From assembly GCF_002310495.1 (NCBI RefSeq), contig NZ_CP023344.1:1612001-1676000 (forward strand): a DNA stretch of 64,000 nt, given 5' to 3'. The position numbers and the translations under genes are program-made. Positions 32,082 to 60,773 of the stretch are shown here, piece after piece. This stretch comes from Nibricoccus aquaticus. Lineage in GTDB: Bacteria > Verrucomicrobiota > Verrucomicrobiia > Opitutales > Opitutaceae. The notes below the pieces were generated by a model. That model was given only the letters and a program-made list of their open reading frames with translations. It did not search any database and had not been told where the DNA came from. Every line of letters begins with the position of its first letter. Within the stretch, counting starts at the first letter, position 1.

Positions 32082-35000
32082 ATGAAAACCCTCTCGATCG
32101 CCTCTTTCGTCGCCCGCATCTCGCGCAACCCGATGATCGCTCTCCGCTCGCTCGTCTTCGCCTGCGCGCTCCCCGCCGCGATCCACGCTGCCGCGCCCAC
32201 CAGTGAAAACTTCGACGGCGTGACGTTGGTCAATGGTTACAGCTTGGGCACGACGGGCTTAGCGAGAGCCATCGATGACTGGACCTTCACCGTCCTCAAC
32301 GCATCGGGAACCCAGGACGCTAATACGCAGATCGACGTCACCAATCGCTCCAACGATACCTCGCTGGCAGATGATGGCTCGGACAACGCGGCACTCCTGG
32401 GCGGTAGTTACAGTGTAGCGACGGGCACCCAGGCTGCCGCGGTGTTGAAAGCGACGACAGGAGAGGAGTTTTCATTCAACTCGATTCGAGTGGAGACCGG
32501 GTATTCCGCAGGCAGCAATTACAGACTGGTCGGTTATCTCAATGGCAGCGCTGTTTCGGGCGCGACCCAGGATTTTACATCGGGGACTTACGGGTCAGGC
32601 GGGACGCTGGTCACGGTGTCGGGCTCTCAATGGCAATATGTCGATGAAGTCCGCATCGTTCGCCAGAATGGTGCCGCCGACATCTCGGTGTACATCGACG
32701 ATATCGTGGTCAGCACAGCTGTTTTGCCCTCCACCATCACCTCCGCCACCTACGACGCCTCCACCGGCGCTCTCGCCGTCACTGGCGCCAACATGACCAA
32801 CGGCGGCACCATCGACGTCACTAAACTTTCACTCACCGGCCAGGGCGGTAACACCTACACGCTGACCTCCGCCAACGTCACCGCCTCCAGCGCCACCGCC
32901 TTCTCCGTCGCCCTCAACGCCGCAGACAAACGCAACATCAACGGCCTCCTCAACAACAACGGCACCTCCTCCGTCGGCGGCACCCCCTACAACCTCGCCG
33001 CCGCCGCCAACTGGGACGCCACCGCCGCCGCCTCGGCCGATCTCACCGGCAACGGCGTCACCGTCTCCAACGTCACCTCGCCCACGATCACCTCCGCCAC
33101 CTACGACGCCTCCACCGGCGTCCTCGCCGTCATCGGCACCAACCTCGTCAAAACCCCCGGCGCGACCAACGACATCACCGTCTCCGCCCTCACTCTCACC
33201 GGCGAAGGCGGCGGGACCCGCACCCTCTCCACCTCCGGCAACGTCGAGATCGCCAGCGCCACCAGTTTTTCCATCCCGCTTTCCGGTGCCGACATCGCCA
33301 GCGTTAACTCCCTGCTCAACAAAAACGGCACCAGCTCCACCGGCGGCACCACCTACAATCTCGCCGCAGCCGACGACTGGAACTCCGTCATCACCGGCGG
33401 CAACACCGCCGACCTCACTGGCAACGGCATCACCGTCTCCAACGCCTTTCCCATCATCACCTCGGCCACCTACGACGCCTCCACCGGATCGCTCGTCGTC
33501 ACCGCAGCCAACATGGTCACCGGTGACACCATCGACGTCACCAAACTTTCACTCGCCGGTCAGGGCGGCAGCTACACCTTGACGAGCGCCAATGTCACCG
33601 CCGCCAGCGGCACATCTTTCACGGTCACACTGAACGCCGCAGACCAGCGCAACATCAACGGCATCCTCAACAAAAACGGCACCTCCGCAGTCGACACGAC
33701 AACCTACAATCTCGCCGCCGCCGCCAGCTGGGATGCCTCCAGAACCTCAGCGGCCGACCTCACCGGCAACGCCGTCACCGTCTCCAACGTCGCCGCGCCC
33801 ACGATCACCTCCGCCACCTACGACGCCTCCACCGGCGTCCTCGCCGTCACCGGCACCAACCTCGTCAAAACCATCGGCGCCACCAACGACATCACCGTCT
33901 CCGCCCTCACCCTCACCGGCGAAGGCGGCGCCACCTACACGCTCACCACCACCAGCGTCGAAATCACCTCCGCCACCGCCTTCTCCGTCACGCTCAACGG
34001 CACCGACCTCGCCGGCGTGAACCTGATCGTGAACAAAAACGGCACCAGCTCCACCGGCGGCACCACCTACAATCTCGCCGCAGCCGACGACTGGAACTCC
34101 GTCATCACCGGCGGCAACACCGCCGACCTCACGGGTAACGGCATCACCGTCTCCAACGTCGCCGTCCCCGCCATCACCTCAGCCACCTACGACGCTTCGA
34201 CCGGCGCGCTCGTCGTCACTGGCACCGGTTTCCTTTCCGCATCCGGCGTGACCAACGACATCGTCGCCAACAAATTCACGCTCACCGGCGAAGGCGGCAG
34301 CACCTACACCCTCACCGACACCGGCAACGTCGAAACCACCTCTACCACCGCCTTCACGCTCACGCTCAGCGCCACCGACCGCGCCGCCGTGAATCTGATC
34401 GTGAACAAAAACGGCACCAGCTCCACCAGCGCGACCACCTACAACCTCGCCGCTGCCGAAGATTGGGCCGCCGGCGCAGACTCCGCCGTCGTCACCGCCG
34501 ACCTCACCGGCAACGGCATCACCGCCTCCAACGTCGCCGCCCCCGCCATCGCCTCCGCCACCTACGACTCCTCCACCGGCGTCCTCACTGTCACCGGCAC
34601 CGGCTTCCTCAAACGCACCGGCGCGACCAACGACATCGACGTCTCCAAACTCACCCTCTCCGGCGACTCCACCGCTTACACACTCACCACGACCAGCGTC
34701 GAAATCACCTCCGCCACCAGCTTCTCCATCACCGTCAACGGCACCGACAAATCCGCCCTCGTCTCCCGCCTCAACAAAAACGGCACCAGCTCCACCGGCA
34801 GCATCACCTACAACCTCGCCGCCGCCGAAGACTGGGCCGCTGGCGCCGACTCCGCTGTCGTCACCGCCGATCTCACTGGCAACGGCATCACCGTCTCCAA
34901 CATCATCACCGTCCCCGGCGCGCCCACCGGCGTCAGCGCCGTCGCTGGCGATACTCAGGCCACGATCTCCTTCACCGCTCCCGTCAGTAACGGCGGCTCA

Positions 35001-38000
35001 GCCATCTTCAGCTACAACGTCACCTCCAGCCCCGGTAATCTGACCGTCTCCGGCACCGCCTCGCCCCTCACCGTCAACGGACTCACCAACGGCGTCAGCT
35101 ACACCTTCACCGTCACCGCGGAAAACTCCGCCGGCAACAGCGCCGCCTCGTCCGCCAGCAATGCCGTCACCCCGTTCAGCACGCCCACCATCGCCACCGG
35201 CGGCGGCGCACCATCGGTGCAAAACACCAACACCCCCGTCATCGTCGATGGCGCTCTCACGATCGGCGGCGGCTCCATCAACGGCGCCCTCGTCTCCATC
35301 GATAACAAAGCCCCGGGCGACGTCCTCGCCTTCAACGCCGCCTTCCTCCCCGGCGGCGTGACCGGCTCCTACAACTCCAGCACCGGCGTGCTCACCTTCA
35401 CGGGCTCCGCGACCGCCGCCCAGTGGCAGGCCCTCCTGCGCACCGTCACCTTCGCCACCGACTGGAACACCACGCTCGGCGCACGCGCCATCACCTTCAG
35501 CCTCGGCACCGCCTCCATCTTCTGGACCAACGGCCACTACTACGAATTCGTCGCCTCCACCGGCATCACCTGGACCGCCGCCAAAGCCGCCGCTCAAAGC
35601 CGCACCTTCTACGGGATGCAAGGCTACCTCGCCACCGTCACCACCACTGCCGAAAACACCTTCATCGCGTCCAAGCTCTCCGGCCAGGGCTGGATGGGCG
35701 CGTCCGACGCTGCCCAGGAAAGCATCTGGCGCTGGGTCACCGGCCCCGAAGGCCTCGAAAACTCCGGCGCAGGCCGTCACTTCTTCACCCAAAACAAAGC
35801 GCACCCCCTCAGCCCCAGCTACGTATCCGTTTACGCCAGTCAGAGCGGCAGCGGTGGCAATGCCATCGGCGGTTACTACAACAACTGGCCAGGCGGCGAA
35901 CCCAACGACGCCAACGCTCTCCATGAAAACTACGCCCACTTCTTCGTCGGCGGCTCATGGAACGACTATCCCGACAGCGTGCCCAGCATCACCGGCTACG
36001 TCGTCGAGTACGGCGGCATGCCCGGCGATCCCACCCCCACCATCGCCGTCACCACGACCCTCACGGTCACCGATACCACCGCCCCCGTCGTCTCCAGCGT
36101 CACAGCTCCAGCCGACAGCATTTCCAGCGTAGGCTCCGCGCTCGATTTCACCGTCATCTTCAGCGAAGGCCTCACCATCGACACCACCGGCGGCACGCCC
36201 TACCTCCCCATCACCCTGAATACCGGCGGCACCATCTCCGCCCCCTGCCTCAACGGCTCCGGCGGCACCACTGTCGTTTTCCGCTACACTGTCGCCTCGG
36301 GCCACCTCGATCTCGACGGTGTCACCGTGGGCTCGGCCATCGTCGCCAATGGCGCCACACTCCGCGACGCCGCGGGCAACAACGCCGTCCTCACACTGAA
36401 CAACGTCGCCAGCACCACCGGCGTCAAAGTCGACACCATCGCCCCGCTCGTAACCTCCATCCTCCGCAAGACCCCCGCGACCCAGATCACCTCCTCCTCC
36501 ACGGTCGTCTACGAAGTCACCTTCTCCAAAGCCGTGCAGAACCTCGAAGCCAGGATGTTCGCCGTCACCGCCTTGAACGGCAGCACCATCGTCGGCTCCG
36601 TCACCGCCCTCACCGGCGGCCCTTCCGTGTACGACGTGACCGTGACTCTCTCCTCCGGCACCGGCGACTTCCGCCTCGATCTGGTATCGGGCGCCACCTC
36701 GCAAGTCCCACCCGGCACGACCCCGACCAACTACCTTTCCAGCGTCAATACGCAGACCCTCGCCTTCAACAGCGCGGACGAACTCTACATCACGGATGCC
36801 AATACCGGCGAAATCCACCGTGTGAACGGCCTCGAAAGCACCACCCTCTTCGTGACGCTGTCCGGCGGCTTCACCGGCTCGACCTTCGACAGCGCGGGTA
36901 ATCTCTACCTGGTCGATCAATGGGACTCTACGTTGAAAAAAATCACGCCCGGCGGAGTCGTCTCCACGCTGGCCTCTGGCTTCAACTATCCGTACGCCGT
37001 CGTCTGTGACGCCGCTGACAACCTTTACGTCACCGATGCCAACGACAACGCCGTGATCAAGGTAACCCCCGCCGGTGTCACCAGTGTCTTCGCCTCGGGA
37101 TTGGGTGCTCCCTACGGCCTCGCCATCGACTCCACCGGCAATCTCTACGTTTCAGATTTCGCCACCGAAAACATCGTCAAAATATCTCCCTCCGGCGTCA
37201 CCAGCGTCTTCGCCTCATCCGCGGGCATTGCCTACGGACTCGCCTGCGATGCCTCCGATAACCTCTACATGGCGGAGCTCAACACCTCTTCAGTGATCCG
37301 CATTTCCGCCGACGGCACCACGGTCACCACTATCGCCAGCTCCGGGCTCGGCTACATCACCGCCCTCGCCGTTGACAATGCCGGCCGTCTCTTCGCCGCA
37401 GACGCAGGCTCCGGCCGCACTCTCCTCCTCGACGTTGGCCGTGTCAAAGACCTCGTCGGCAACGACCTCACCAGCCTGCCCTACACCAGCGGCGAGCTCT
37501 ACACCTACGCCACCAATCCCTTCGTCACCGGCGTCACCTCCTCCTCCGCCAACGCCACCTACAAAATCGGCGACATCGTTAAAGTCGAAGTCAGCTTCAG
37601 CGCCTCGGTGGACGTCAACGCCACCGGCGGCACCCCCGCCATTCTCCTCGAAACCGGTGCCACCGATCGCAACGCCCTCTACGCCTCCGGCAGCGGCTCG
37701 AACTCCCTCACCTTTAACTACACCGTCCAAAGCGGCGACCTCACCGCCGACCTCGACTACGCCAGCACCGGCGCACTCGTGCTCAACGGCGGCATCATCC
37801 AAGGCACCTCCAACAGCCTCGCCGCCTTCCTCACGCTTCCGGCCATCGGCCACGCCTCATCCCTCGCCGTACAAAAAGCCCTCGTCATCGACGGCATCCG
37901 CCCCACCGCCGGCATCGTCGTCGCCGACAACGCGCTCACCACCGGCGAAACGTCCCTCGTCACCTTCACATTCTCCGAAGCGGTGAACAACTTCGCCAAT

Positions 38001-41000
38001 AACGATCTCACCCTCGCCAACGGCACCCTCTCCAACGTCGCCTCCTCCGACGGCGGCATCACCTGGACCGCCACCTTCACGCCCACCGCCGGCGTCGAAG
38101 ACTCCTCCAACGTCATCACCCTCGCCAACACCGGCGTCACCGACCCCGCCGGCAACACCGGCACCGGCACGACCGACTCCAATAACTACACCATCGACAC
38201 CCAGCCCCCTAGTGCTCCGGCAGCCTTTGCCGCAGTCGCCAGCGCCAGCAGCATTTCCCTCAACTGGACCAATCCCACCGCCGGCGACTTCGCCTCGATC
38301 ACACTCCGCCGCTCCACCACGGCCTATCCCACATCCGTGACCGACGGCACCGCGATCGCTTCCGGCCTCACGAGCACGACCTATCAGCAAACCGGCCTCG
38401 CCGACGGCACCTACTACTACGCCCTCTTTGCCCTCGATACCTCGGGTAATATCTCCGTCGCCGCCACCGCCACCGCCACGGTCGATACCGTCGCCCCCGT
38501 CGCGCCTTCAGCGCCCGACCTCGCCACCGCGAGCGACTCCGGCAGCTCCAACACCGACAACATCACGAGTGTCACCACGCCCACCTTCACCGGCACCGCC
38601 GAAGCGAACAGCACGGTTGAACTCCTCCGCGGCGGCACCACCTCCCTCGGCACCGCCACCGCCAACGGCTCCGGCAACTGGACGCTCGCTCTCGGCACCG
38701 CTCTCGCCCAAGGCACATACAGCATCACCGCCAAAGCCACCGACTCCGCTGGTAACACCGGCGCAGCATCGAGTGCGCTGAGTGTCACCATCGACACCAC
38801 CGCCTCGGCCGCTCCCGCGCTCACCGCGATCACGAACGACACCGGCGCCAGCGCCACCGACCGTATCACCAGCGACACCACGCTGATCCTCTCCGGCACC
38901 GGCATCGCAAACGAAACGATCACCGTCTTCCGCAACGCCGCCCAGATCGGCACCGCCACCGTGAACGGCTCCGGCATCTGGTCCTTCGACTACACCGCCA
39001 CCACGCTCGCCGCCGGCACGCACACCTTCACCGCGACCACCACCGACATCGCTGGCAACACCAGCGTCCTCTCCGCCGCTTTCCTCGTGGAGATCGATAC
39101 CGCCACGCCGTCCGCCCCCGTCATCACCACGATGAGCAACGACACCGGCGCCAGCGCGACCGATGGCATCACCAGCGACAACACGCTCGTCTTCGGCGGC
39201 ACCGCCGAGGCCAATGCCACCGTCACCCTCTCGCGCAGCGGTCTCGGCGTGATCGGCACCACCACCGCCAACGGCAGCGGCGCCTGGGTCTTCGACTACA
39301 CCGCCATCACCATCCCCAACGGCACCTACCTCTTCACCGCCTTCGCCAGCGACACCGCCGGCAACACCAGCGCCGTCTCCTCCGACTTCCCCGTCACCAT
39401 CGACACCACCGCGCCAGCGATCACCACGCAACCCGCCGGCGGCACGTACATCATCGGCAATTCCTTCACGCTCACCGTCGCAGCAAACGATGCCACGACG
39501 ATCGCCTATCAGTGGTCGCGCAACGCCGGTACGCTTACCGATTCGACGGGCCGCACTGGCTCGACGACCGCCTCGCTCGCCCACTCAAACATCACGCTGA
39601 CCGGCTTCGAAGGTGTCTACACTGTCCGCCTCACCGACCTCGCCGGTAACGTCACCACGAGCAACGTCGCCACGGTGATCGTGAACAAGATTCCCGCCAC
39701 CGTCACCCTCGGCGGCCTCGCGCATACCTACGACACCACGGCGAAATCCGCCACCGCCACGACCACACCCTCCGGCCTCGCCGTCACGTTCACGTACGAC
39801 GGCTCCGCCACCGCTCCGACCAACGCCGGCAGCTACGCCGTCGTCGCGACCATCAACGACGCTACCCGCACCGGCACCGCCAGCGGCACACTGGTCATCG
39901 GCAAATCCACCCAGACCATCTCATTCACCGCGCCCTCCTTCGTCACTCTGGGCGTGCCCACTACGCTGACGGCAACCGCCAGCACCGGACTGCCCGTGAC
40001 CTTCTCCGTCCTCAGCGGCCCGGCCACGATTTCCGGAGCCGCGCTCACGGCCAGCGGTCTTAATCCGATCACGGTGCGGGCCACCCAGTCGGGGGACTCT
40101 AACTACAACGCGGCCAGCGCCGACCAGGTGATCTCCCAGATCATCACCAACTACCCCGCACCCGCTCCCGACGGCTTCGCTGTTTCCGTCACCGGCGGCG
40201 CGGGCACCGGCTCGCAGGCGGTCGTGGTCACGACAGCCGCCGACTTCCGCACCCACGCCGAATCCACCGACATGAAGGTCATCACCGTCGTCGGTATCCT
40301 GAACCTGGGCACGACTCCGGTCGCCGTGAAGTCCAACAAGACCCTCCAGGGCGCCGACGCCAGCGCCACTCTCGTCGGCAACCTCAACCTCGGCACCGGC
40401 GTGAACAACGTCATCATCCGCGGCCTCAACCTCACCAACCCCGCCGCCTCGCTCACCGGCCTCACCGACACCAACAACGCCGTCACCCTCGCTGGCGCGC
40501 GCGGTGTCTTCATCACCCACTGCTCGTTCTTCGACGCCGCCAACCACGCGCTCAAGATATCGACTGGCTCGGACAACGTGACGGTTTCCTGGAGCGAGTT
40601 CTACAACACTCTAGGCGCGGTGACCACCGGCTCCGGCACCGTCATCGGCAGCACCACCGAGACCGCGCCGATCCGCGTTTCCCTCCATCACAATCTCTGG
40701 AGCGCCGGCATCGTGCAAAACATGCCCGCCGCGACCTACGGCCAGGTTCACCTCTACAACAACGTGTTCAACGCCACCGGTAACACGACCGGCACCGAGG
40801 CACTCGATCAGTCTCAGCTCCTGAGCGAGCGCAACGTGTACACCGGCGTCGCCAGCCCGATCACCCGCCGCCACGTGAACACCGCGCTGCCCATCGGCCG
40901 CATCCTCGCCATCGGTAACACCTACACCGCCACGACCGGCACCGCACCCTACGCCGATCTCGATCAGGTCTTCACGCCGTCGTATTCCTACGAAGCGCTG

Positions 41001-41468
41001 CCCGTCTCCGACGTTGTGACCGTCGTCACCGCCCACGCCGGCAACAACACCGGCGCCAACTACACCGACGATGCGACTGGCACCGCGACCATCACCGGCC
41101 CCGGCGCGCCCGTGACCCCCGGCACCGCACTCGCGCTCAACGCAGTCGCCAGCGGCTTCACGCCTGCGACGTATCAGTGGCGCAAGAACAACATCGCCAT
41201 CACCGGTGCCACCTTTGCCACCCACAACATCGCCTCCGCCGGCGAGAGTGATGTCGGCACCTACACCGTCGCCATCACGATGAGCACCGGCGACACCGTG
41301 GTCAGCCGTCCGCTTGCGATCACCCTCAACGCCATCCCCGTCACCCCCGCCAACCTCCAGCTCCAGGTCAACGGCGGCGGCGGTGGCGGCTCCCCCTCCA
41401 CCTGGTTCCTCGGCGCCCTCGCCCTCCTCTGCGCAGCCCGCGCGATCACCCGCCGCCACGCGCGCTGA
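32082..41468 (+). CDS. Giant exported multidomain protein with C-type lectin, NHL and pectate-lyase-like domains
   Basis: 3128 residues. Signal peptide about 1-43 (cleavage after AIHA). An N-terminal beta-sandwich precedes six tandem repeats of about 110-120 residues (about 218-943), each opening [11 protein letters not shown]. Then come a fibronectin III domain (about 945-1030), a C-type-lectin-like domain (about 1146-1310; [26 protein letters not shown]), NHL-like propeller repeats (about 1563-1787; [20 protein letters not shown]), several Ig-like domains, an MBG-like domain (about 2535-2610), a PL1 beta-helix (about 2690-2970), an Ig-like domain and a Gly-rich C-terminal anchor ([19 protein letters not shown], then Arg). 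The PL1 domain reads QNMPAATYG where RxPxxR is expected. Probably a surface polysaccharide-binding or adhesive protein, not an active lyase. Confidence 0.85.
32733..34905 (+). repeat. Six in-frame tandem repeats (about 330-390 bases each)
   Basis: Six consecutive copies of a coding unit opening with [11 protein letters not shown] and closing with [12 protein letters not shown]. Units alternate between a form with [15 protein letters not shown] and one with [19 protein letters not shown], so the array looks built from duplicated pairs. Long stretches are nearly identical at DNA level (for example the [18 protein letters not shown] segment in units two and four), favouring recombination. Confidence 0.9.
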
Positions 41469-44900: not shown

Positions 44901-45564
44901 CGTGGAAAAAGCGTGGCGCACCGAGATCATCAACAACGACGACTCCGAGTACGGCACATTCATGTCCGCCCTCGGCTTGGACCCAACCGAGTACTATAAT
45001 TACGAGATCCAGACGATCGCCTCCACCGGTGAAAAAGCCATTCGCAAGGGCTTCGAACTCGAGGTGACTCAAAACCTCGGATTCGTCGGAGCCTGGGCCA
45101 GCGGCATCGACTTCTTCGCCTCTTACACCCGGCGCCCCACCGTCGCTCGCACCGAAAACAACTCCATCCGCGGATATATCAGGCAGGATCCTGTCCGTGC
45201 CAAATACACGGGCGGCCTTTCTTACAGCCGAAGCCGCTTTTCCATTCAGTCCAAATTCACCTACGTGGAGCAGGACCCCACGCAGAACAGCGGCTCCATC
45301 AGCGCCAATCTGCCCGACATGGGAACGACGGCCTTTAACGTCGCCACCTTTAATCCCAACTATAACCCCGCGACGGTGTCACTTCAGGCCAACTACATCC
45401 TCAACAAGTACCTGAAGTTCTTCGTCTCCGGTAATCGCATCCTGGAGAGCAAAAAACAGGTCCGCACGATTGATTCCATCGGCGTCATGCCTGAATGGGC
45501 GACCTACCGCCAATTCACCGAACAAGGCGTACAGATTGCCGCAGGCGCCACCCTGTCCTTCTAA
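41980..45564 (+). CDS. TonB-dependent outer-membrane receptor with carboxypeptidase-regulatory-like domain
   Basis: 1194 residues. A long N-terminal region with a signal peptide ends at about residue 53 (APLHA/QEN). A CarboxypepD_reg-like domain (about 56-135; GTITGRVFNVNSGTYLTNAR) precedes a possible TonB box (LDTFVIEA, near 146-153). The plug domain shows VGEFVRYLPGVDISEGG, GVRGFGGSDTDITIDGMPI and NAPGGSINLITRGAFEARK. The rest is a large barrel ending in GVQIAAGATLSF with terminal Phe. It would import a ligand, probably a carbohydrate given the neighbours, using TonB/ExbBD energy. The first 20 residues contain a small palindrome (AGGAGCGGCGCTCCT), so the true start may be uncertain. A strong terminator follows. 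Confidence 0.93.
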   Translation: MHHHPARQPGAALLRHLQRLKAVSLAALPATPVLRLAACSAIALATPIAPLHAQENATGTITGRVFNVNSGTYLTNARVTVEGTSIQAFTDDSGTYFLRNVPAGENKIVISYTGQDNIVKSVKVDQGGTARIDANFNAGTDGEAVTLDTFVIEAARYRNAQELAVNEERVSNNIKSVVALDSLGYVADGNVGEFVRYLPGVDISEGGAQDTSNPTNATTVGVRGFGGSDTDITIDGMPIASGAGSLTRAVQLDGLSVNNASRLEIIKVATPDMPQNAPGGSINLITRGAFEARKPSYDITTTLIGNTNEPNVFKKEPGPDGPMFKTRTSVRLSATIPISNTFGLSLSASNDPKYTMYRTGNLRDYRYTANSTTVGGVATPTTNALGGIRLDNPLAFRYELRDQQWVEDRQSGSIRADWRPFPSLEIRAGGTYSQQESKAVIRRTQWQFSNNGRDVSDWGNGFVRSRPNTPHSVDQTVDARDKEGFTTQANLSVAYKKGPWKVDLKASASESYHTLPDTQNGHFSTLDARLSVARMSWEGITDGKVGQILVWDASGNPINYQDISKWGGIGSDAEIRSSQNSSRDLKRDYKLDVSRELDFLPFPVTIKAGVNQREQSNRRWGRGDTYKMTYIGPSIPAASVASEFTTEAKYGYTNDQQWVDTYKLFEIYKQRPDYFSDTFRRDAVLDGGGGNVDRNIGNYLARVGTKKGVTTTDKDWYGMLTASFFNNRLTVVTGGRQSRKEVNGYNVFNDPRAPFVRMADGSIYTDSIYTKGVRFDGGLNTGYTTPSMNSRYAVLNDTALRSRMAAAGVAYLPNALALGYASPAADVANPNANKALDQNGIWRYPGTGSEGNGANMLLAQLTRYTRDINTARTQPFQPQLQVAYNITDSLKLQVAYSKETRMPDLDGTNGILNGGSFTISQNADWYDGAPDEVLQGRVTVGNSKNQPEVNHSFNGKLAYYAKYGRYSISYYHKYVEKAWRTEIINNDDSEYGTFMSALGLDPTEYYNYEIQTIASTGEKAIRKGFELEVTQNLGFVGAWASGIDFFASYTRRPTVARTENNSIRGYIRQDPVRAKYTGGLSYSRSRFSIQSKFTYVEQDPTQNSGSISANLPDMGTTAFNVATFNPNYNPATVSLQANYILNKYLKFFVSGNRILESKKQVRTIDSIGVMPEWATYRQFTEQGVQIAAGATLSF

Positions 45565-45590
45565 CCCTCGCTCAATTATCGAACCGTTCA

Positions 45591-45620
45591 AAGCCGGGCC
45601 CATCACGGGCCCGGCTTTTT
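45591..45620 (+). terminator. Strong intrinsic terminator of the TonB-dependent receptor gene
   Basis: AAGCCGGGCCC (45591-45601), loop ATCAC, GGGCCCGGCTT (45607-45617): a perfect 11-base stem running into TTTTT (45616-45620), C and TTTT. It lies 27 bases after the stop codon. Confidence 0.93.
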
Positions 45621-45675
45621 CTTTTCTACACGCCTCATTCAACCGCTCTCCTGAAACCTGGCGCTGATTCCCCCC

Positions 45676-46821: not shown

Positions 46822-46867
46822 ACTGGACGCACGGATACGTCCGCTCCCTCCGCGCGCGCGCCCGCCA

Positions 46868-50936: not shown

Positions 50937-53900
50937 ATGCATCTCCCCACCCGGCTTCGGTTTTCACGGCTTCAGAATTTCGCCTGCTCGTTTCTGGCTC
51001 TCTTCAGTTTAAGCGCTCTGGCCGCCGTCGCCGCCCCACCCGCTCTCCAAACGCAGTCATCCACGCGTTACGTCACGGAAAATTTCGCGACCACCAACGT
51101 CGATCACGACATCTACCTCAATGACGACAGCTCCGGCATAACCAGCGCGACGGTCAGCATCACCAGCAACTACCAGAACGGGCAGGACGTCCTGGAGTTC
51201 ACCAATCAACTCGGGATCACCGGCAGCTGGAGCGCCGGCACCGGCGTACTCACCCTGTCAGGCGCAGCCTCGACTAACGACTACCAGACCGCGCTGCGCG
51301 CCGTCCTCTACAAGAACGCCAGCGAAAATCCCGCCGACATCACCCGCACCGTGACCTTTGCGGTGACCGACAGCGATGGAGAAACCGGCAGCGCCACCCG
51401 CGACCTCCACATCTTCCCGACCAACGATTCCCCGGTGAACACCGATCCCGGCCCGCAGGCCATCGATGAAGACGACACCCTCTATTTCTCCTCGGGCATG
51501 GGCAATCAGATCCAGATCTCCGACGTCGATGCCAGCAGCGGCGCGATGAAAATCACCCTCTCCGTCACTCGCGGCACACTCACGCTCGCCGGCACGACCG
51601 GACTCTCCTTCACCACCGGCGACGGCACCAGCGACGCCTCGATGGTCTTCACCGGCACATTGACAAATATCAACAACGCCCTCGCCACGCTCACCTATCA
51701 CCCGGTGCTGGACTACTTCGGATCGGACACGCTCACCCTCGTCACCAACGACCAGGGCAACACCGGCTCCGGCGGTGCCAAAAGCGACACCGAAAACATC
51801 AGCATCACGGTGAATCCCGTGAACGACGCCCCCGTCGCCAACGACGACCTCGCTTCCACGGCAGACTTAACGCCGCTCGATATCTGGGTGATGAACAACG
51901 ATCGCGATCCCGACAACGAGTTCCACGAACTGACCGTTACCATTCTCAGCAACACCCTAGGAAGCTCTGCCACAGTCAATCCCGACAACAGCATTAACTT
52001 CGATCCAGGTGCCAACAGCGGCGTGCAGACAGTCACCTACCAACTCACTGATCCTGACGGCCTCACGAGCAGCATCGCCACCCTCACGATCAACGTCGGC
52101 CCCAACACTCAACCGGGCACCAGCAGCACGTCCGTGACCACCGATGAAGACACGCCCTACACATTTCAGGCGGGTGACTTCCCGTTCAGCGATCCGGATG
52201 GCGGGCAAACGCTGGCCGGAATTATTATCCACAACATCCCTGCCGATGGCACCCTCACGCTCTCCGGCATTCCGGTGCATAACAGCCAGACCATCTTGGT
52301 CGGCGACATCGGCTCCTTGGTGTTCACCCCCGCGTCCGGCGCCAGCGGCACGCCCTACACCAGCTTCACCTTCTCCGTGCAGGACAACCTCGGCGCCTAC
52401 AGCCCCTCGCAAACCTTCACCATCAACGTCGCCGACGTGAACGATGTGCCCACCGAGATTTCGCTGAGCAAAACGAAACTCTTCCAGACCGCCGGCCTGA
52501 ACGCCGTTGTCGGCACGCTTTCGACCGTCGATTCCGACGACGTCTCCTTCTCCTACACGCTCGTCGCTGGCGCGGGTGACACCCACAACGCATCCTTCAA
52601 CATCGCCGGCTCTTCGCTACGCGCGAACGACGCCAGCGCGTTAACCGCCGGCACTTACTCCGTCCGCATCCAGACCGATGACGGTCGCGGCGGCACACAC
52701 GCCCAGTCGTTTTCCATCACCGTCTCCGACGGTGTCTTCACGTGGAGCGGCCGAGGCTTCCATCGCGATTGGTCCATCCCGGAAAACTGGGAAGGACTCC
52801 GCATCCCGGAGCCAGGCGGCAACCTGGTCTTTCCTCCAAACGTCGCGACCGGAGAAGGCAGAAACAATCTCGGTCAGGGGATCGTTTACCACTCCATCAC
52901 GATCGCCGCCGGCGGCTACGATCAAGGTCAGGACTCCATCCAGCTCGAAGCCGGCGTCACGACGACCAATGGCGGCGGCGGCTGGCTCGGCATGGATATC
53001 ACCCTGCTCAACGCTCAGTCGTTCGACGTCTCAACCGGCGGCACGCTGCTCCTCGTCGGCAAAATTTCTGGATCTCAAGCCCTGACAAAAACCGGCGCAG
53101 GCACTCTCGCCCTGATCAACGGCACCGATCACGACTACACCGGCACCACTAACGTTGACGAAGGCACCTTGCTCCTCGCCGCGCGCAACAACGCCGTCGC
53201 CGTAGGCACCGCGCTCAACATCGCAGCCGGCGCCACCGTCAAGTTCGCCGAAGATGGCTTCGCCGGTGAAACCATCACCGACGGCCAGATCGACGCCTCC
53301 GTCTCCGTCACCATCGATGAAGGCGGCACCCTCGACCTCAACGACCGCGCCGGCACGATCAACGGCCTCACGCTCAAAGGCGGCAGAGTCCTCACAGCCA
53401 CCAGCGGCGAATTGGTGCTCGGCGGAAATATTACGTCTCAAACCACTGCCAGCGACGTCAGTTCAACCATCGAAGGCTTCGGCACGCTCAATTTCAACGG
53501 CAACATCGTCGAGGTCTCCGTCTCCGACGACATCGACGTCGCCGACGATCTCAACATCAGCGCCACCATCGCCAACGGCACGCTCTACAAAACCAGCTCC
53601 GGCACCCTAACACTCGCCGGCACCAACATGTACACCGGCGGCACAACCGTCAGCGCCGGCACCTTGAATGTAACCGGCAGCACGGCCAGCGGCGGCATCG
53701 TCGTTGCACCTGCCGCAGCGCTCGGCGGCACCGGCACGATCGCGGGCCACGTCACCATCAACTCCACCGCGACTCTCTCACCCGGCGTCGATGGAGCAGG
53801 CACGCTGACGATGGACTCTCTCACGCTCTCCTCCGGTTCGATCATGAAGATCGACATCAACGACACCACCCCCGGCACCGACTTCGATCAAGTCATCAGC

Positions 53901-56900
53901 CTCGGCGCCGTGGACCTAAGCGGCGCCGTGCTTCAAGTGGCCCTCGGCTTCACCCCGCCGCACAACGGCTCCGCCTTTCAACTCATCTCGGCAGGCGGCG
54001 GCGCCATCTCCGGCACATTCACCGGCCTCAGCCAGGGCGCCATCACGACGATCAGCGGCGAAAAATTCGCCGTCAGTTACACCGGTGGCGATGGCAACGA
54101 CTTCGTCCTGACCGGCAACACCGCACCCACCGGTACAAATAAAACCATCACGACCAACGAAGATACCGCCTACACGTTCGTCGCCTCCGACTTCGGCTTC
54201 AGCGATGCCGACAGCGGCGACTCACTCAGCGCCGTCCGCATCAATTCGATTCCCAGTGATGGCAGCCTGACTCTCTCGAGCGTCGCCGTGACGGCCTCTC
54301 AAGTCATCGTCGCCGCCGACATAGGCAATCTCGTCTTCACCCCCGCGGCCAACGCCAACGGCAACGGCTACACCGGCTTCAGCTTCAGCGTCCGCGATCA
54401 AAGCTCCACTTACGATCCATCGCCCAACGCGATCACGATCAATGTGACTGCGGTGAACGATGCTCCCTCGGGAGCGGATAAAACCATCACGACCGACGAG
54501 GACACCGCGCACACCTTCTCCGCCTCCGACTTCGGCTTCAGCGATATCGATGGTGGCGACACACTCAGCGCCGTCCGTATCGATACACTTCCCGGTGCAG
54601 GTAGCCTGACTCTCTCCGGCGCCGCCGTCACCGCCTCTCAAGTCATCGTCGCTGGAAACATCGGTAATCTCCGTTTCACTCCCGCGGCCAACGCCAGCGG
54701 CGCCAGCTACGCCAGCTTCACCTTCAGCGTCCGCGACCAGAGTTCCGTTTACGATCCATCGCCCAACACCATCACGATAGACGTCACCGCGGTGAACGAC
54801 ACCCCGACCTTCCTCTCACTTTCACCCTCAACGGTGAATCAATCCAGCGGCACCAATGCCGTCATCGGCACCTTCACGACCACCGATGTGGACGACAGCA
54901 CATTCACCTATGCGCTGGTTTCTGGCGGCGGCGACACGGACAACGCATCCTTCAACATCTCCGGCTCCACCCTCCGCGCCAACGATGCCCTCGCTCTGCC
55001 CGGCGGCATCTACGCCGCCCGCTTCAGCACGACCGATAGTAGCAATGCCACCTTCGAGAAGAACTTCGTCATCACCGTAGTTGACGACGTCGCACCGAAC
55101 GCGCCGACCGCATTCTCCGCGACACCCAGCGGCACGACCGTCGCACTTGCGTGGACGAACCCCGTCAGTGATTTCCACTCGGTCACTATCCGTCGCTCCA
55201 CATCAGGCTACCCGTCCTCCGCCTCCAACGGCACCGCCGTTGCATCCGGCGTAACCACCACCACTCAAAATGAAACCGGCCTTGCCGACGGTGATTACTA
55301 TTATGCGATCTTCGCCCGCGACGCCGCCGGTAATTTCTCAACCGCAGCCACCGCGACCGCCACAGTCGATACCACGCCGCCCACCACCACGATAGCCTCC
55401 GCATCCCTCTCGTCCGACACCGGCTCCAGCGCGACTGACCTCATCACCGCGACCCCAGCACAAACGATCTCCGGCACACTAAGCGCCAATCTCCTCGCTG
55501 ATGAGACCGTGCAAGTGTCCCTCGACAACGGCTCCACCTGGTCATCCGCCGCCGCGAGCGTCGGCTCTAACACCTGGTCCCTCGCCGGCCAGACCCTCAC
55601 CGGCAGCAACACGCTTCAAGTCCGCGTGATCGATGCCGCCACCAACGCCGGCATCGCTTTCACCCAGCCCTACGTCCTCGATACGACTGCGCCGATCACG
55701 ACAATCGCTTCCGCCGCGTTCTCCGCCGACACCGGCACGAGCTCGACTGACTTGATCACACGCACCGCCTCACAAACCCTCTCCGGCACGCTAAACGCCA
55801 ACCTCGCCGCCGGCGAAATCGTCGAAGTCTCCATCGACAACGGCTCCACCTGGACCACGACAACGAGCACCGTTGGCATGAACTCCTGGTCCCTCTCCGG
55901 ACAAACGCTCACCAGCAGTAACACGCTAAAAATCCGCGTCACCGACACCGCTGGCAACAACGGGACAACCTTCAGCCGGGCCTATGTCCTCGACACGACT
56001 GCTCCCACCGCAGAGATCGCCTCCGCCGCTTTCTCCGCTGACACCGGCCTGAGCTCGACCGACTTTATCACCGCCACCGCTGCTCAAACCATCTCCGGCA
56101 CTGTGAGCGCCAACATGGTTTCAGACGAAATCGTCGAGGTCTCCCTCAATAACGGCTCCACCTGGACCACCGCTACATCCAGCGTCGGCAGCACCCTGTG
56201 GTCGCTCAGCGGCCAGACCCTCACCGGTAGCGACACGCTCGCAATCCGCGTGGCGGATACCGCCGGTAATATCAGCACCACATTCAGTCATGCCTACGCG
56301 CTCGACACCTCGGCACCAAACGCCCCCTCCACGCCGGACTTGGACAGCGGCTCCGACACTGGACTGTCGAACACCGATAACATCACCTCCGACACGACTC
56401 CGACTCTCTCCAGCACCGCCGAAAACAACGCCACCGTCACGCTGTACGATACCGATGGCACCACCGTGCTAAACACCACCACCGCCAACGGTAGCGGCAA
56501 CTGGTCAATCGCCTCTTCCACGCTTTCATCCGGTGCCCACACCATCACCGCCAAAGCCACCGACACCGCAGGCAACGTCTCGTCCGCATCGCCCGGCCTC
56601 TCCATCACGATCGACACCACATCTCCCGTCGTGACGAGTGCCTCCGTTCCTGCGAACGCCTCGTACGGCATAGGCCAGCACCTGGACTTCACGGTTAACT
56701 TTGCCGAAAACGTCACCATCGACACCAGCGGCGGCACGCCCTCACTCGCCCTCTCGCTCGATACCGGCGGCACCGTAAACGCGTTCTACCTCTCCGGCAG
56801 CGGCACCTCCGCACTCGTTTTCCGCTACACGGTGGCAAGCGGCCATATCGACTCCGACGGCGTTACACCCGCCGGTTCGATCACAACCAACGGCGGCACC

Positions 56901-59900
56901 CTCAGCGACACCGCCGGCAACTCCGCCACACTCACGCTCAACAGCGTCGGCAGCACCACAGGTGTGCTCGTCGATGGCGTCGCCCCCACGATCTCCTCGA
57001 TCGTGCGCACGGGCGCCAGCGCGACCATCAACGCCGCCAGTATCGATTACACGGTGACCTTCTCCGAAACCGTCACCGGCGTGGATACGAGCGACTTCTC
57101 GCTCACGCCCTCAGGCACAGCTGCCGGTGCGATCGCATCGATCTCAGGCAGCACCAGCACCTACACCGTGACCGTTAACAGTGTCACCGGCGACGGCACG
57201 CTGCGCCTCGATCTGAAGAGCTCCGGCACCGGCATCGCCGACTCCGCGACCAATGCGATCAGTGGCGGCTACACGAGCGGCCAGACTTACACGATCGACT
57301 CCACCGCCACGTCCGCTCCGACAAATTTCTCCGCAGTGGCTAACGGTTCCACCATCGCGCTCACCTGGACCAATCCAGCCGCAGGCGACTTCGCGTCCTC
57401 CACGCTCCGTCGTTCCTCCACCGCCTATCCGACCTCGGTCACCGACGGCTCATCGGTCGCCTCCGGCCTCACCGGCACCAGCCACAACGACACCGGATTA
57501 TCCGACGGCGCTTACTACTATTCCCTCTTCGCACTCGATACCGCGGGCAACATCTCCGGCGCCGCTCAAGCCACCGCGACAGTCGATACCGTTGCGCCCA
57601 CCGCGCCCGTGATCGTCGCCATTTCCGACGACACCGGCACGAGCAACAACGACCAGATCACCACCGACACCACGCTCTCGCTCTCCGGCACCGCCGAGGC
57701 CGGCAGCACCGTCAAAGTCTATCGCAACACCACGCTGATCGGCAGCACCCCCGCCGACGGCACCGGCGCATGGACCTTCGACTACACCGGCACCACGCTC
57801 GCAGGCGGCACGCACAGCTTCACCGCGACGAGCACCGACGCGGCGAACAATATCAGCATCGAGTCCACCACCTTCCTCGTGGAGATCGATACCGCCACGC
57901 CATCCGCTCCGGTCATCACAGGCATCAGCAACGACACCGGCGCCAGCGCGACCGACGGCATCACCAATGACGCCACGCTCGTCTTCACCGGAACCGCCGA
58001 AGCGAACACCAAAGTAACCCTCTCTCGCAACGGCCTCGGCGTCATCGGCACCGTCACCGCCACCAGCGGTGGCGCATGGACCTTCGACTACAGCGCAACA
58101 ACGCTGCCCGACGGCACCTATCTCTTCACCGCGTTCGCGAACGATACCGCTGGCAACACCAGCACCGCCTCCGCCGACTTCCCGGTGACGATCGACACCT
58201 CCGCGCCAGCCATCGGCACGCAGCCCGTCGGAGGCACTTACACCGCGCTCGGCTCCTTCGCACTTAGCGTCACCGCCACCGATGCTACCGCGCTCACGTA
58301 TCAATGGTACCAAGGCGCCACCGCCCTCACCAACAACGCCAACCGCACCGGCTCCACGACTGCTGCGCTCAATCACACGAACATCAGCCCCGTCGGTTTC
58401 CCCGGCAGCTACACCGTGGCGATCACCGACCTCGCGGGTAACACCACGACCAGCACCGCCGCCGTCATCGTCGTTAATAAGGCCGATCAAACGATCACCT
58501 TCCCCGTCATCGCCGATAAGCTCACCACCGCCGCTCCTTTCGCGCTCACCGCAACAGCGAGCAGCAGCTTCACCGTGACATATGCCGTCACCTCCGGCCC
58601 CGCCACCATCGCCGGCAACACCGTCACAATCACTGGCGCCGGATCGGTGACCATCCGCGCAAGCCAGGCCGGCGATGTGAACTACAACTCCGCGTTCACC
58701 GACCGCACCTTCACAGTGACCAAGGCCGTCGCGACGGTCGTGATTCTCTCTACACCCAACACCTACGACGCGCTCGCCCACACGGCTCTCACGGCAACAA
58801 CCCCAGGCGGCCTCACCGTCGCCGTGACCTACGACGGCAGCAGCACTGCTCCAGTAAACGCCGGCACCTACGCCGTCGTCGCCACGATCAACGACGCCAC
58901 CTACCAAGGCACCGCATCCGGCACACTGACCATCGCGAAGGCTGATCAACTCGTCACCTTCCCGTCCGTCGGCACCCTCACCGTCGGCACGCCCGTGACT
59001 CTCACCGCCACGGCCAACACCGGCCTGCCCGTCACGTTCTCGGTCGTGAGTGGTAACGCCACGCTCTCCGGCACGAGCCTCACCGTCCACGACGCCAACC
59101 CACTCCTGCTTCGTGCGACTCAGTCGGGAAATACCAACTACAACCCCGCCACCGCCGACCGCGCCGTCACGAACATCGTCAAACTCTCGCAGACGATCAC
59201 CTTCGCCGCGCTCGCCGATAAATCGCGCACCGCAGCTCCGTTCGCGTTGAGCGCGACCGCGACAAGCTCTCTACCCGTTTCATTCACCGTCCAGAGCGGA
59301 CCGGCCACGCTCTCGGGCAACACGCTCACGCTCACCGGTGCAGCCGGCGTTGTCACCGTCGTCGCCCATCAAACGGGTAACGACGCCTACTCCGCCGCGA
59401 CCGACGTCAGCCGCAGCTTCACCGTCAGCGCCGACTACCCGGCACCGGTCGCCGACGGCTTCGCCGCTTCGGTCACGGGCGGCGCGGGCTCCAGCTCACT
59501 CGCTGTCACTGTTTCGACGGCCGCAGACTTCCGCACGCACGCCGAAGCCACCGCGCCCGCCGTCATCACCGTCGTCGGCACGCTCAACCTCGGCGCCTCC
59601 ACCGTCGCCGTGAAATCCAACAAGACGATCCAGGGCGCCGACGGCAGCTCCACGCTCATCGGCAACCTCTCGCTCTCGAGCGGCGTGAACAACGTCATCG
59701 TCCGCGGGCTCAACCTCACCAACCCCGGCACGACGATCACCGGCAACGCGTATTCTGATGGCGGCGACGCGATAACCCTCACCGGCGCGACCGGCGTGTT
59801 TATCACGCACTGCTCGTTCTTCGACACCGCTGACCACGCGCTCAAGATCACCGGCGGCTCCAACAACATCACCGCCTCGTGGAACGAATTCTATTACACG

Positions 59901-60773
59901 TCCGCGCAGACCGTTCATCGCCACAGCGTGCTCATCGGCGCCGCCGGTTCCGAGTCCGCCCCGCTGCGCGTCTCGCTCCACCACAACTACTGGTCCACCG
60001 GCGTCACCCAGAACATGCCCGCGGCGACCTTCGGCTATGTTCACCTCTACAACAACGTGTTCGCCACACCGGGCAACACGACGGGCACCGAGGCACTCGA
60101 CCAGTCGCAGCTGCTCAACGAGCGCAACATCTACACCAACGTCGCCAGCCCGCTGACGCGCCGCCAGGTGAACAGCGCGCTCGCGATCGGCCGCATTTTG
60201 GCCATCGGCGATTCCTACACCGCACCCTCCGCATCGCCCGGCACCGCGCCATACGGCGGCATGGATGCCGTCTTCACGCCGGGTTATTCGTACGAAATGC
60301 TGCCCACCAGCGACGTCGTCACCGTGGTCACCGCCCACGCCGGTAACAACACCGGTGCCAACATCACCGACGCCGCTACCGGCTCCGCCACGATCACCGG
60401 CCCGACCGCAGCGATCACCGCAGGCAACGCACTGACGCTCACTGCGGTTCCGTCCGGCATCACGCCGACCTCCTATCAATGGCGCCTCAACAACGTCACC
60501 ATCTCCGGAGCCACCTCCGCGACCTACACCACGCCGAGCGCGCAAGAGTCCCACGCGGGCATCTACACCGTGGCAATCAGCCTGGCCACCGGCGACCTCG
60601 TCATCAGCCGGCCCTTCATCGTCACCATCAATCCGGCCCCAGTCACACCGCCTCCCACTCCTGCCTCTAGCGGAGGTGGCGGCTCTCCGTCATGGGGCTT
60701 CCTCGGCGCACTGCTCCTGCTGAGCGCCCATCGTCTCCACCAGCAGCGCCGCCAGACTCCCGTAAAGTCCTGA
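50937..60773 (+). CDS. Giant exported multidomain protein with cadherin-like, autotransporter-type repeat and pectate-lyase-like domains
   Basis: 3278 residues. Signal peptide about 1-33 (SALAAVAA). Cadherin-like domains (about 60-600; NDAPVANDD, TTDEDTPYTFQAGDFPFSDP) lead to two autotransporter-associated strand repeats (about 718-760 and 883-978; KTGAGTLALINGTDHDYTGT, YTGGTTVSAGTLNV). Two further cadherin-like domains, fibronectin-like domains, three copies of an IASAAFSADTG-type Ig-like domain (about 1480-1790), further Ig-like and MBG-like domains follow. At the end are a PL1 beta-helix (about 2832-3130), an Ig-like domain and the C-terminal signal SGGGGSPSWGFLGALLLL plus Arg. The last 1100 or so residues are paralogous to the other giant. 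The PL1 motif reads QNMPAATFG instead of RxPxxR, so lyase activity is doubtful. Confidence 0.85.
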   Translation: MHLPTRLRFSRLQNFACSFLALFSLSALAAVAAPPALQTQSSTRYVTENFATTNVDHDIYLNDDSSGITSATVSITSNYQNGQDVLEFTNQLGITGSWSAGTGVLTLSGAASTNDYQTALRAVLYKNASENPADITRTVTFAVTDSDGETGSATRDLHIFPTNDSPVNTDPGPQAIDEDDTLYFSSGMGNQIQISDVDASSGAMKITLSVTRGTLTLAGTTGLSFTTGDGTSDASMVFTGTLTNINNALATLTYHPVLDYFGSDTLTLVTNDQGNTGSGGAKSDTENISITVNPVNDAPVANDDLASTADLTPLDIWVMNNDRDPDNEFHELTVTILSNTLGSSATVNPDNSINFDPGANSGVQTVTYQLTDPDGLTSSIATLTINVGPNTQPGTSSTSVTTDEDTPYTFQAGDFPFSDPDGGQTLAGIIIHNIPADGTLTLSGIPVHNSQTILVGDIGSLVFTPASGASGTPYTSFTFSVQDNLGAYSPSQTFTINVADVNDVPTEISLSKTKLFQTAGLNAVVGTLSTVDSDDVSFSYTLVAGAGDTHNASFNIAGSSLRANDASALTAGTYSVRIQTDDGRGGTHAQSFSITVSDGVFTWSGRGFHRDWSIPENWEGLRIPEPGGNLVFPPNVATGEGRNNLGQGIVYHSITIAAGGYDQGQDSIQLEAGVTTTNGGGGWLGMDITLLNAQSFDVSTGGTLLLVGKISGSQALTKTGAGTLALINGTDHDYTGTTNVDEGTLLLAARNNAVAVGTALNIAAGATVKFAEDGFAGETITDGQIDASVSVTIDEGGTLDLNDRAGTINGLTLKGGRVLTATSGELVLGGNITSQTTASDVSSTIEGFGTLNFNGNIVEVSVSDDIDVADDLNISATIANGTLYKTSSGTLTLAGTNMYTGGTTVSAGTLNVTGSTASGGIVVAPAAALGGTGTIAGHVTINSTATLSPGVDGAGTLTMDSLTLSSGSIMKIDINDTTPGTDFDQVISLGAVDLSGAVLQVALGFTPPHNGSAFQLISAGGGAISGTFTGLSQGAITTISGEKFAVSYTGGDGNDFVLTGNTAPTGTNKTITTNEDTAYTFVASDFGFSDADSGDSLSAVRINSIPSDGSLTLSSVAVTASQVIVAADIGNLVFTPAANANGNGYTGFSFSVRDQSSTYDPSPNAITINVTAVNDAPSGADKTITTDEDTAHTFSASDFGFSDIDGGDTLSAVRIDTLPGAGSLTLSGAAVTASQVIVAGNIGNLRFTPAANASGASYASFTFSVRDQSSVYDPSPNTITIDVTAVNDTPTFLSLSPSTVNQSSGTNAVIGTFTTTDVDDSTFTYALVSGGGDTDNASFNISGSTLRANDALALPGGIYAARFSTTDSSNATFEKNFVITVVDDVAPNAPTAFSATPSGTTVALAWTNPVSDFHSVTIRRSTSGYPSSASNGTAVASGVTTTTQNETGLADGDYYYAIFARDAAGNFSTAATATATVDTTPPTTTIASASLSSDTGSSATDLITATPAQTISGTLSANLLADETVQVSLDNGSTWSSAAASVGSNTWSLAGQTLTGSNTLQVRVIDAATNAGIAFTQPYVLDTTAPITTIASAAFSADTGTSSTDLITRTASQTLSGTLNANLAAGEIVEVSIDNGSTWTTTTSTVGMNSWSLSGQTLTSSNTLKIRVTDTAGNNGTTFSRAYVLDTTAPTAEIASAAFSADTGLSSTDFITATAAQTISGTVSANMVSDEIVEVSLNNGSTWTTATSSVGSTLWSLSGQTLTGSDTLAIRVADTAGNISTTFSHAYALDTSAPNAPSTPDLDSGSDTGLSNTDNITSDTTPTLSSTAENNATVTLYDTDGTTVLNTTTANGSGNWSIASSTLSSGAHTITAKATDTAGNVSSASPGLSITIDTTSPVVTSASVPANASYGIGQHLDFTVNFAENVTIDTSGGTPSLALSLDTGGTVNAFYLSGSGTSALVFRYTVASGHIDSDGVTPAGSITTNGGTLSDTAGNSATLTLNSVGSTTGVLVDGVAPTISSIVRTGASATINAASIDYTVTFSETVTGVDTSDFSLTPSGTAAGAIASISGSTSTYTVTVNSVTGDGTLRLDLKSSGTGIADSATNAISGGYTSGQTYTIDSTATSAPTNFSAVANGSTIALTWTNPAAGDFASSTLRRSSTAYPTSVTDGSSVASGLTGTSHNDTGLSDGAYYYSLFALDTAGNISGAAQATATVDTVAPTAPVIVAISDDTGTSNNDQITTDTTLSLSGTAEAGSTVKVYRNTTLIGSTPADGTGAWTFDYTGTTLAGGTHSFTATSTDAANNISIESTTFLVEIDTATPSAPVITGISNDTGASATDGITNDATLVFTGTAEANTKVTLSRNGLGVIGTVTATSGGAWTFDYSATTLPDGTYLFTAFANDTAGNTSTASADFPVTIDTSAPAIGTQPVGGTYTALGSFALSVTATDATALTYQWYQGATALTNNANRTGSTTAALNHTNISPVGFPGSYTVAITDLAGNTTTSTAAVIVVNKADQTITFPVIADKLTTAAPFALTATASSSFTVTYAVTSGPATIAGNTVTITGAGSVTIRASQAGDVNYNSAFTDRTFTVTKAVATVVILSTPNTYDALAHTALTATTPGGLTVAVTYDGSSTAPVNAGTYAVVATINDATYQGTASGTLTIAKADQLVTFPSVGTLTVGTPVTLTATANTGLPVTFSVVSGNATLSGTSLTVHDANPLLLRATQSGNTNYNPATADRAVTNIVKLSQTITFAALADKSRTAAPFALSATATSSLPVSFTVQSGPATLSGNTLTLTGAAGVVTVVAHQTGNDAYSAATDVSRSFTVSADYPAPVADGFAASVTGGAGSSSLAVTVSTAADFRTHAEATAPAVITVVGTLNLGASTVAVKSNKTIQGADGSSTLIGNLSLSSGVNNVIVRGLNLTNPGTTITGNAYSDGGDAITLTGATGVFITHCSFFDTADHALKITGGSNNITASWNEFYYTSAQTVHRHSVLIGAAGSESAPLRVSLHHNYWSTGVTQNMPAATFGYVHLYNNVFATPGNTTGTEALDQSQLLNERNIYTNVASPLTRRQVNSALAIGRILAIGDSYTAPSASPGTAPYGGMDAVFTPGYSYEMLPTSDVVTVVTAHAGNNTGANITDAATGSATITGPTAAITAGNALTLTAVPSGITPTSYQWRLNNVTISGATSATYTTPSAQESHAGIYTVAISLATGDLVISRPFIVTINPAPVTPPPTPASSGGGGSPSWGFLGALLLLSAHRLHQQRRQTPVKS

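Follow-up and report, generated by a model that had tools for sequence, protein, structure and literature searches.

The C-terminal part of a 3128-residue protein from Nibricoccus aquaticus contains a domain, here called D1, that has the predicted fold of a pectate lyase of family PL1 and lacks the residues with which such enzymes cut. Our best reading is that D1 is a catalytically dead PL1 beta-helix and the penultimate module of a set of rhombosortase-sorted surface proteins. Taken together, the non-catalytic readings of the domain are highly probable, and we give a probability of about 0.5 to a display or stem role as its main function. The window that we analysed is a stretch of 64,000 nucleotides (NZ_CP023344.1, positions 1,612,001 to 1,676,000).

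Fold and active-site positions of D1

The features of the D1 gene are as follows.

32082..41468, + strand: open reading frame of the giant secreted-type protein that carries D1, 3128 aa (ORF list; Pfam families Big_13, Big_12, fn3, NHL and Ig)
40161..41045, + strand: PL1-like beta-helix domain D1, residues 2694-2988, catalytic residues gone (Pfam, alignment, model and tree)
40476..40478, + strand: N2799, at the first calcium-Asp position of PL1 (alignment)
40542..40556, + strand: NHALK, with N2821 and K2825 on the calcium-ligand positions of DG..D (alignment)
40719..40736, + strand: N2880, at the catalytic-base position (R279 of B. subtilis), to T2885, at the second Arg of RxPxxR (alignment)
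41106..41324, + strand: Ig-like domain between D1 and the tail (PF13895, residues 3009-3081, below the curated cut-off; Foldseek also matches the model, less strongly, to Ig domains)
41364..41465, + strand: C-terminal tail, made of GGGGGGSPS, a hydrophobic stretch and a basic end (tail model, E 5.4e-17, the tail itself being a member of that model)

The N terminus of the protein, judged by eye, looks like a Sec signal peptide. When the C-terminal 522 aa were searched on their own, PF00544 (Pectate_lyase_4) matched with an E-value of 6.5e-17 and 62 bits against a cut-off of 24, and D1 given as a fragment scored 62-65 bits, likewise over the curated family score of 24. PF00544 was absent from the 13 families found by a Pfam scan of the full-length protein. 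An earlier, sequence-only reading of this DNA had aligned the region with pectate lyases through its helix region, a 19-residue stretch at 40329-40385, and the assignment holds both for the Pfam score and for the superposition of a structure model on PL1 enzymes. The other motifs that it quoted were also located, with ITHC at 40512, NHALKI at 40542-40559 and QNMPAATYG within a 30-residue stretch at 40680-40769.

In an alignment with PL1 enzymes of known structure, QNMPAATYG falls on RxPxxR (QRAPRVRFG in B. subtilis 3krg and QRMPRIRFG in Thermotoga 3zsc). This confirmed the claim that both arginines of the motif are lost, with Asn2880 and Thr2885 in their places. The accompanying statement that the second Arg is the catalytic base had to be corrected: by our count on the aligned 3krg sequence, R279 of B. 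subtilis Pel corresponds to the first of the two arginines in RAPRVR, and a review assigns the role of base to Arg279 in this enzyme and to Arg218 in PelC (PMC10992409). Lyases of the PL1 fold can do without the second Arg, as seen in VexL, which aligns with the motif QRNPRAQ and is described in part of a structural paper as a lyase with bound product (PMC11229556). The calcium positions are altered as had been proposed (N2799, N2821 and K2825), and Ser2851 replaces the lysine of PL1 enzymes (K247 in B. subtilis Pel). Compared with active PL1 enzymes, D1 thus misses the base Arg, which is also Asn in its window paralogue D2 (below), and the calcium-Asp set. Since pectin lyase is given in the same review passage as using an Arg instead of calcium (PMC10992409), loss of the calcium-Asp set alone would not rule out activity.

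The fold of D1 and its Ig-like neighbour was modelled with AF2 from 18 aligned rows, all of them window and related-locus sequences, at a mean pLDDT of 86.3. The best PDB match of the D1 model in Foldseek was 7xks (E 2e-14), and VIA-align gave Z scores of 36.2 to 3zsc (2.2 A over 282 aligned residues), 31.8 to PelC, 28.3 to PfPL1 and 21.5 to PfbA; the sequence-only reading had proposed the PelC superposition as a check. A right-handed parallel beta-helix of pectate-lyase type is therefore predicted to be intact in D1 despite the loss of the catalytic set. A second domain of the same kind, from another Opitutaceae MAG (L050), has Ser at the base position and P, S and H at the Asp positions; its protein has no PF00544 match at 1e-5, and its model (pLDDT 93.3) reaches a Z of 38.5 to the pectate lyase 7bbv. 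Both models share their alignment with true PL1 enzymes, which may have pulled them towards the PL1 fold.

Further upstream, the D1 protein contains a C-type-lectin-like stretch (35520-36017, + strand; PF00059 on residues 1163-1235, E 0.023, below the cut-off). The motifs GGEPND (35892) and GSWND (35952) come after this match.

Paralogues, phylogeny and residue loss

There are three PL1-like domains of the D1 kind in the window, and thirteen in the genome. The two others in the window belong to the following features.

50937..60773, + strand: D1 paralogue of 3278 aa with the same C-terminal module and the motif QNMPAATFG (ORF list, Pfam)
59445..60347, + strand: PL1-like domain D2 of this paralogue, 70% identical to D1 (alignment)
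60654..60755, + strand: C-terminal tail of this paralogue (tail model)
62941..63882, - strand: PL1-like domain D3 in the C-terminal part of its protein (motif QRMPSST; catalytic Arg and Asp positions kept; alignment)
62227..62331, - strand: C-terminal tail of the D3 protein (tail model, TIGR03501)

Within the window, the D3 protein occupies 62209-63960 (- strand), and its 5' part lies beyond it. The complete frame of 2362 aa (L112:213-7298, - strand) contains a pectinesterase, an intact PL1 domain at residues 1333-1617, the D3-type PL1 domain, Ig domains and the tail, and may possibly be a one-chain surface pectinase; a second protein of this layout is present at L113. Between the two giant genes, at 41980-50767, lie a TonB receptor with a carboxypeptidase-regulatory domain (+), a LacI regulator (-), a propeller/Y_Y_Y histidine kinase (+) and a LuxR-type response regulator (+), a gene set like that of a polysaccharide locus. 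We considered a link between D1-type proteins and the TonB receptor (a SusD-like role) and set it aside, as the window receptor matched only the window locus in phmmer searches at E up to 1e-8; most loci reach 1.5 kb past the match, which makes this a weak negative. Relatives of the sensor kinase were seen near one paralogue (L115) and in one further locus (L053), and are not general.

In the whole genome (4.73 Mb, one contig), PF00544 has 19 matches at E up to 1e-3, and 13 of these belong to the D1 subfamily. Their RxPxxR motifs form a graded series. Two are intact (QRMLACR and QRMLADR), others keep the base and have lost the second Arg (QRMPSGS, QRMPSST, QRMPVTT and QRMPFSS), and a third group has lost the base (QSMPVTT, QSLPATT, QQQPDST, THMPETT and QNMPAAT). 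Directly after nine of the 13 subfamily domains there is an Ig-like domain, or a pair of them in the D3 protein, followed by a tail of glycines with SPS or APS, a hydrophobic stretch and a basic end.

We then followed the subfamily into other genomes. The own-genome profile matched 11 of 100 family genomes, our own included, at E up to 1e-30. Domains with the tail architecture were found in eight of the 100 (G000, which is our own, G002, G009, G045, G050, G076, G079 and G099), and the G013 contig ends too soon for an assignment. A profile search of a wider contig set gave 62 loci, among which L050 and L051 are of the tail type and L052 meets its contig end before the tail. In a phylum sample of 387 genomes, searched at E up to 1e-18 with at most six candidates scored per genome, six genomes matched and no further tail-type genome was found. 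From these sources 66 unique domains were extracted and 62 were placed in an IQ-TREE tree; L067, L068, L144 and L145 were left out of both tree and counts, and L052 is in the tree and outside the tail counts.

The domains that stand directly before a tail form a clade of 31 rows with support of 100/99, or of 33 rows with D3 and L052 at 99/96. On the 62-domain tree the tail architecture changes once, and the base Arg four times if L029, where the Arg is present only through a gap and is hence ambiguous, is counted as having it. The catalytic Arg is present in 29 of 29 domains that are not directly before a tail (28 without L063, which was set to Arg by hand because its GRNP is one column off), compared with three, plus the ambiguous one, of 32 that are. 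The second Arg shows the same division, at 20 of 29 versus 0 of 32. At the calcium-Asp positions the non-tail and tail domains differ as 25/29 and 7/32 for the first, 28/29 and 19/32 for the middle, and 28/29 and 4/32 for the last (D or E); the middle position, still Asp in 19 of the 32 tail domains, counts against reading the module as dead. Combined into a five-site score, 28 of the 29 non-tail domains reach 4-5 and 26 of the 32 tail domains reach 0-1. These counts describe related rows nested in one clade in which the tail arose once, and not independent events.

Five of the 29 Arg-bearing domains sit elsewhere within tail-bearing proteins (L112_1333, L113_1190, L024, L025 and L033, the last three assigned by equal frame length), so that the loss goes with the position directly before Ig and tail rather than with mere presence in a tail protein. 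This suggests that catalytic loss came when a PL1 domain became fixed as the last large module before a membrane-sorting tail. A profile search for homologues with the same substitutions had been proposed as a check. D2 reads QNMPAATFG, and the catalytic Arg is missing from 28-29 of the 32 domains that share this architecture, which makes the loss in D1 more than chance or a sequencing slip. PF00544 at E 0.01 matches 22 of the 30 domains in the tail-type alignment (29 with a tail; L023 ends with its contig).

Among the columns of the alignment, D2759, N2783, T2902, Q2912 and D2961 (window 40356-40964) are conserved residues enriched in the tail set; judging from sequence, they could possibly form an interface with the Ig domain or the export machinery. 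A new active site was also sought among the conserved residues and rejected, as the columns in which one polar or charged residue reaches at least 70% are mostly common outside the tail set and look structural. Judged from the column list, no catalytic-looking residue set is present among the tail-set columns conserved at this level.

C-terminal tails and rhombosortase genes

The tail of the D1 protein is tripartite, with Gly-rich, hydrophobic and basic parts in that order at the C terminus. To find similar tails we used a model of 36 positions built from 16 tails, nine of them from our own genome, which therefore score well by construction. In our genome it gave ten matches at E <1e-8 and one at 1.64. 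Nine of the ten strong matches are exactly the nine own PL1-like tail proteins, and the tenth protein has, by eye, NHL-like repeats. Because those nine tails are in the model, the informative result is the near absence of other matches in the genome. The published GlyGly-CTERM model, TIGR03501, places three of the nine tails over its cut-off (including D3) and three under it (including D2), and does not list the remaining three at E up to 10 (including D1); it is over cut-off in one of 14 control genomes.

Two rhombosortases in our genome score over the TIGR03902 cut-off, compared with none in the 14 control genomes. One of them (2277943-2278404, - strand) lies 174 bp from the tail of a pseudo-PL1 protein (L003), in tail-to-tail orientation. 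Its product contains GLSG and, later, a His in AHIGG, which we take to be the catalytic residues. The other (G000:C1:279000-281559, L205) lies directly after a protein ending in GGGGGGGAIDGG and a hydrophobic stretch, a tail of the GlyGly type, and this protein may belong to the inter-alpha-trypsin-inhibitor-like type that the 2011 survey of the system mentions. At E up to 0.1, our genome also has six matches to the exosortase family (L128-L133), one of them over the TIGR02602 cut-off, so from sequence it may sort by exosortase as well as by rhombosortase.

Rhombosortases over cut-off are present in 53 of the 100 family genomes, and 17 have at least two matches at E up to 1e-18. Seven of the eight genomes with tail domains have one and six have at least two, kinship between the genomes being ignored in this count; the exception, G099, is 68% complete. 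The two genes can be close, with six tail-rhombosortase pairs at distances of 89-672 bp in five genomes (G000, G014, G059, G073 and G095). In G002, G009, G045, G050, G076 and G079 the rhombosortase adjoins no tail among the matches listed. Tail matches were found in 11 of 18 chosen genomes, again among the matches listed, and five of the seven without one (G003, G005, G022, G028 and G033) have a rhombosortase over cut-off.

We also examined which domains precede the tail elsewhere. Among the 29 best-scoring tail proteins from other genomes, eight have a PL1-like domain and about 12 end, by eye, in NHL-like repeats. The tail is thus not tied to PL1 in other genomes, and PL1 is not required for sorting. 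Hidden PL1 domains were looked for in the others and discounted: the own protein without one (L162/L201) and 21 of the 29 sampled gave no match to the PL1 tail-type model (--max, E up to 10). In this sample L192 fell under the score filter, and the matched segment of L177 is not at the frame end. The NHL-like repeats before the tail (L171-L201) appear by eye to be a second recurrent penultimate module. Twelve tail proteins of other genomes were scanned for N-terminal partners, which included RCC1 (3), metallophosphatase (2) and NHL (1), several frames being cut by the locus end.

Proposed role and relation to known systems

From these data we infer that D1 has lost lyase activity, that its protein is cut by a rhombosortase and located at the surface, and that the domain serves there as a stem or display element rather than by binding a specific ligand. 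The giant protein would be exported by Sec, and its Gly-rich, hydrophobic and basic tail would anchor the C terminus in the inner membrane. Cleavage at the tail glycines by a rhombosortase would follow and the protein would reach the outer surface, where the beta-helix and Ig pair could present the variable N-terminal domains as a display head or rigid stem. The RCC1, metallophosphatase and NHL partners seen in other genomes suggest that such a stem is generic.

The leading alternative is that D1 is a pseudo-lyase that binds glycans, its former substrate groove being retained, in the manner of a lectin or CBM, to hold pectin or some other polysaccharide at the cell surface beside active enzymes. 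We consider this possible, although less probable than a stem. It is consistent with the pectinesterase domains (PF01095) in three of the nine own tail proteins, two of which have an intact R..R PL1 domain ahead of the degenerate one, and with the C-type-lectin-like stretch of the D1 protein (PF00059, below cut-off as noted above). A lyase-like beta-helix of Streptococcus pneumoniae, PfbA, is moreover discussed by its authors as carbohydrate-recognising in the part of their report that we cite (PMC3718772). However, the D1 and D2 proteins themselves have neither a pectinesterase nor a second PL1 domain by Pfam. The median number of basic residues is 11 in the tail-clade domains and 20 in the others (median lengths 280 and 289), and the net charge is -7.5 compared with -3; together with the loss of two calcium-Asp positions in most of them, this is a poor basis for holding a polyanion. 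No specially conserved groove residue capable of contacting a ligand was found.

The sequence-only reading had left a choice between a structural or carbohydrate-binding pseudo-lyase and a domain that uses a different active site. The first is favoured by the intact predicted fold, the missing catalytic set, the clade-wide loss and dN/dS values below 1 (given below), while the second found no support. A relocated site, for example with Lys2825 at a former calcium-Asp position or other residues acting as base or charge neutraliser, is improbable. It draws on pectin lyase, tabulated in the review passage with Arg176 as a neutraliser that replaces calcium (PMC10992409) and near the same region by alignment, on the Lys at the 2825 position that D1 and D2 have in common (2 of 32), and on VexL, which acts without the second Arg (PMC11229556, in part). 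Within the clade, however, the 2825 position varies (S 10, T 7, D 3, K 2 and others; n=32), and no new basic or acidic set is conserved. The base position, invariably Arg outside the tail context (29 of 29), is equally unsettled within it, with D 12, N 5, A 4, S 3, G 2, H 1, Q 1 and R 4, one of these ambiguous.

Neutral decay of a redundant enzyme copy into a functionless one is the least probable reading: many paralogues with stepwise loss in one genome (QRMLACR, QRMPSST, QSMPVTT, QNMPAAT) could be taken that way, but dN/dS (NG86) is 0.44 for D1 versus D2 and 0.20-0.54 across eight chosen close pairs of tail domains, the loss is common to at least four genera, the fold is retained in both modelled domains as far as the predictions go, and the frames are long and open.

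The best reading of these values is that D1-type domains are kept by selection, and display or adhesion, not cutting, is the most likely task of D1. As a tentative scenario that we hold to be doubtful in its full form, a PL1 domain was exapted once in an Opitutaceae-type lineage into a sorting cassette of dead PL1 helix, Ig domain and rhombosortase tail. The active site would then have been lost through several substitutions, with some members falling below Pfam detection, and the cassette would have acquired unrelated N-terminal cargo (phosphatases, RCC1 propellers and Ig/cadherin stalks) and its own second rhombosortase.

These observations matter in three ways. Pfam still labels D1 and D2 "Pectate lyase", and genome-based pectinase counts would include such very probably non-cutting proteins. 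The series of intact motif, Arg kept and Arg lost within one genome is a natural experiment in the passage from enzyme to surface module. Finally, the tail proteins offer candidate substrates for a second rhombosortase among Verrucomicrobia-type bacteria; for Opitutus terrae, the 2011 survey has one target (PMC3237569).

Two components of this proposal are already known, namely lyase-derived beta-helices without detected activity (PfbA) and the GlyGly-CTERM/rhombosortase system. Among the matches listed in a search of the open-licence PMC literature, covering titles and the starts of abstracts, no work joined an inactive PL1 clade to a rhombosortase tail, and the word "pectate" is absent from the text of the 2011 GlyGly-CTERM paper (PMC3237569).

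D1 is like the PL1 enzymes (PF00544; PelC, B. subtilis Pel, Thermotoga 3zsc, pectin lyases and VexL) in its Pfam match and parallel beta-helix. It differs from them in having other residues at every position of the base Arg, the second Arg, the Lys and the calcium Asps, and in its giant N-terminal repeats and its C-terminal Ig domain and sorting tail. PfPL1, of PL1 subfamily 2, has the PL1 fold in common with D1 (Z 28.3), but keeps two catalytic arginines according to the section of its report used here (PMC11229556). The closest precedent is PfbA, described in part of its report as a surface beta-helix with a proposed polysaccharide-lyase ancestry, no detected lyase activity and a C-terminal LPXTG anchor (PMC3718772). 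The likeness to the D1 model (Z 21.5) is one of fold only and does not imply adhesion by D1; PfbA also differs in its LPXTG/sortase anchoring, its Gram-positive host and its more distant fold, and its origin from PL1 is not established.

In the tail, our proteins resemble the GlyGly-CTERM/rhombosortase system (TIGR03501/TIGR03902) in the Gly-rich motif, the hydrophobic stretch, the basic end and, for some, the adjoining rhombosortase genes. They differ in that the glycines are mostly followed by SPS or APS, and no more than three of the nine pass the published model. In published work on VesB, a rhombosortase cleaves the GlyGly-type tail, and the protein stays attached to the cell surface once type II secretion has exported it (PMC6219818); in our genome no GspD over the curated cut-off was found, the best match scoring 273.6 bits against 351.35. 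The dedicated pairs reported in the 2011 survey include one in Opitutus terrae, where a single GlyGly-CTERM gene adjoins a rhombosortase gene (PMC3237569).
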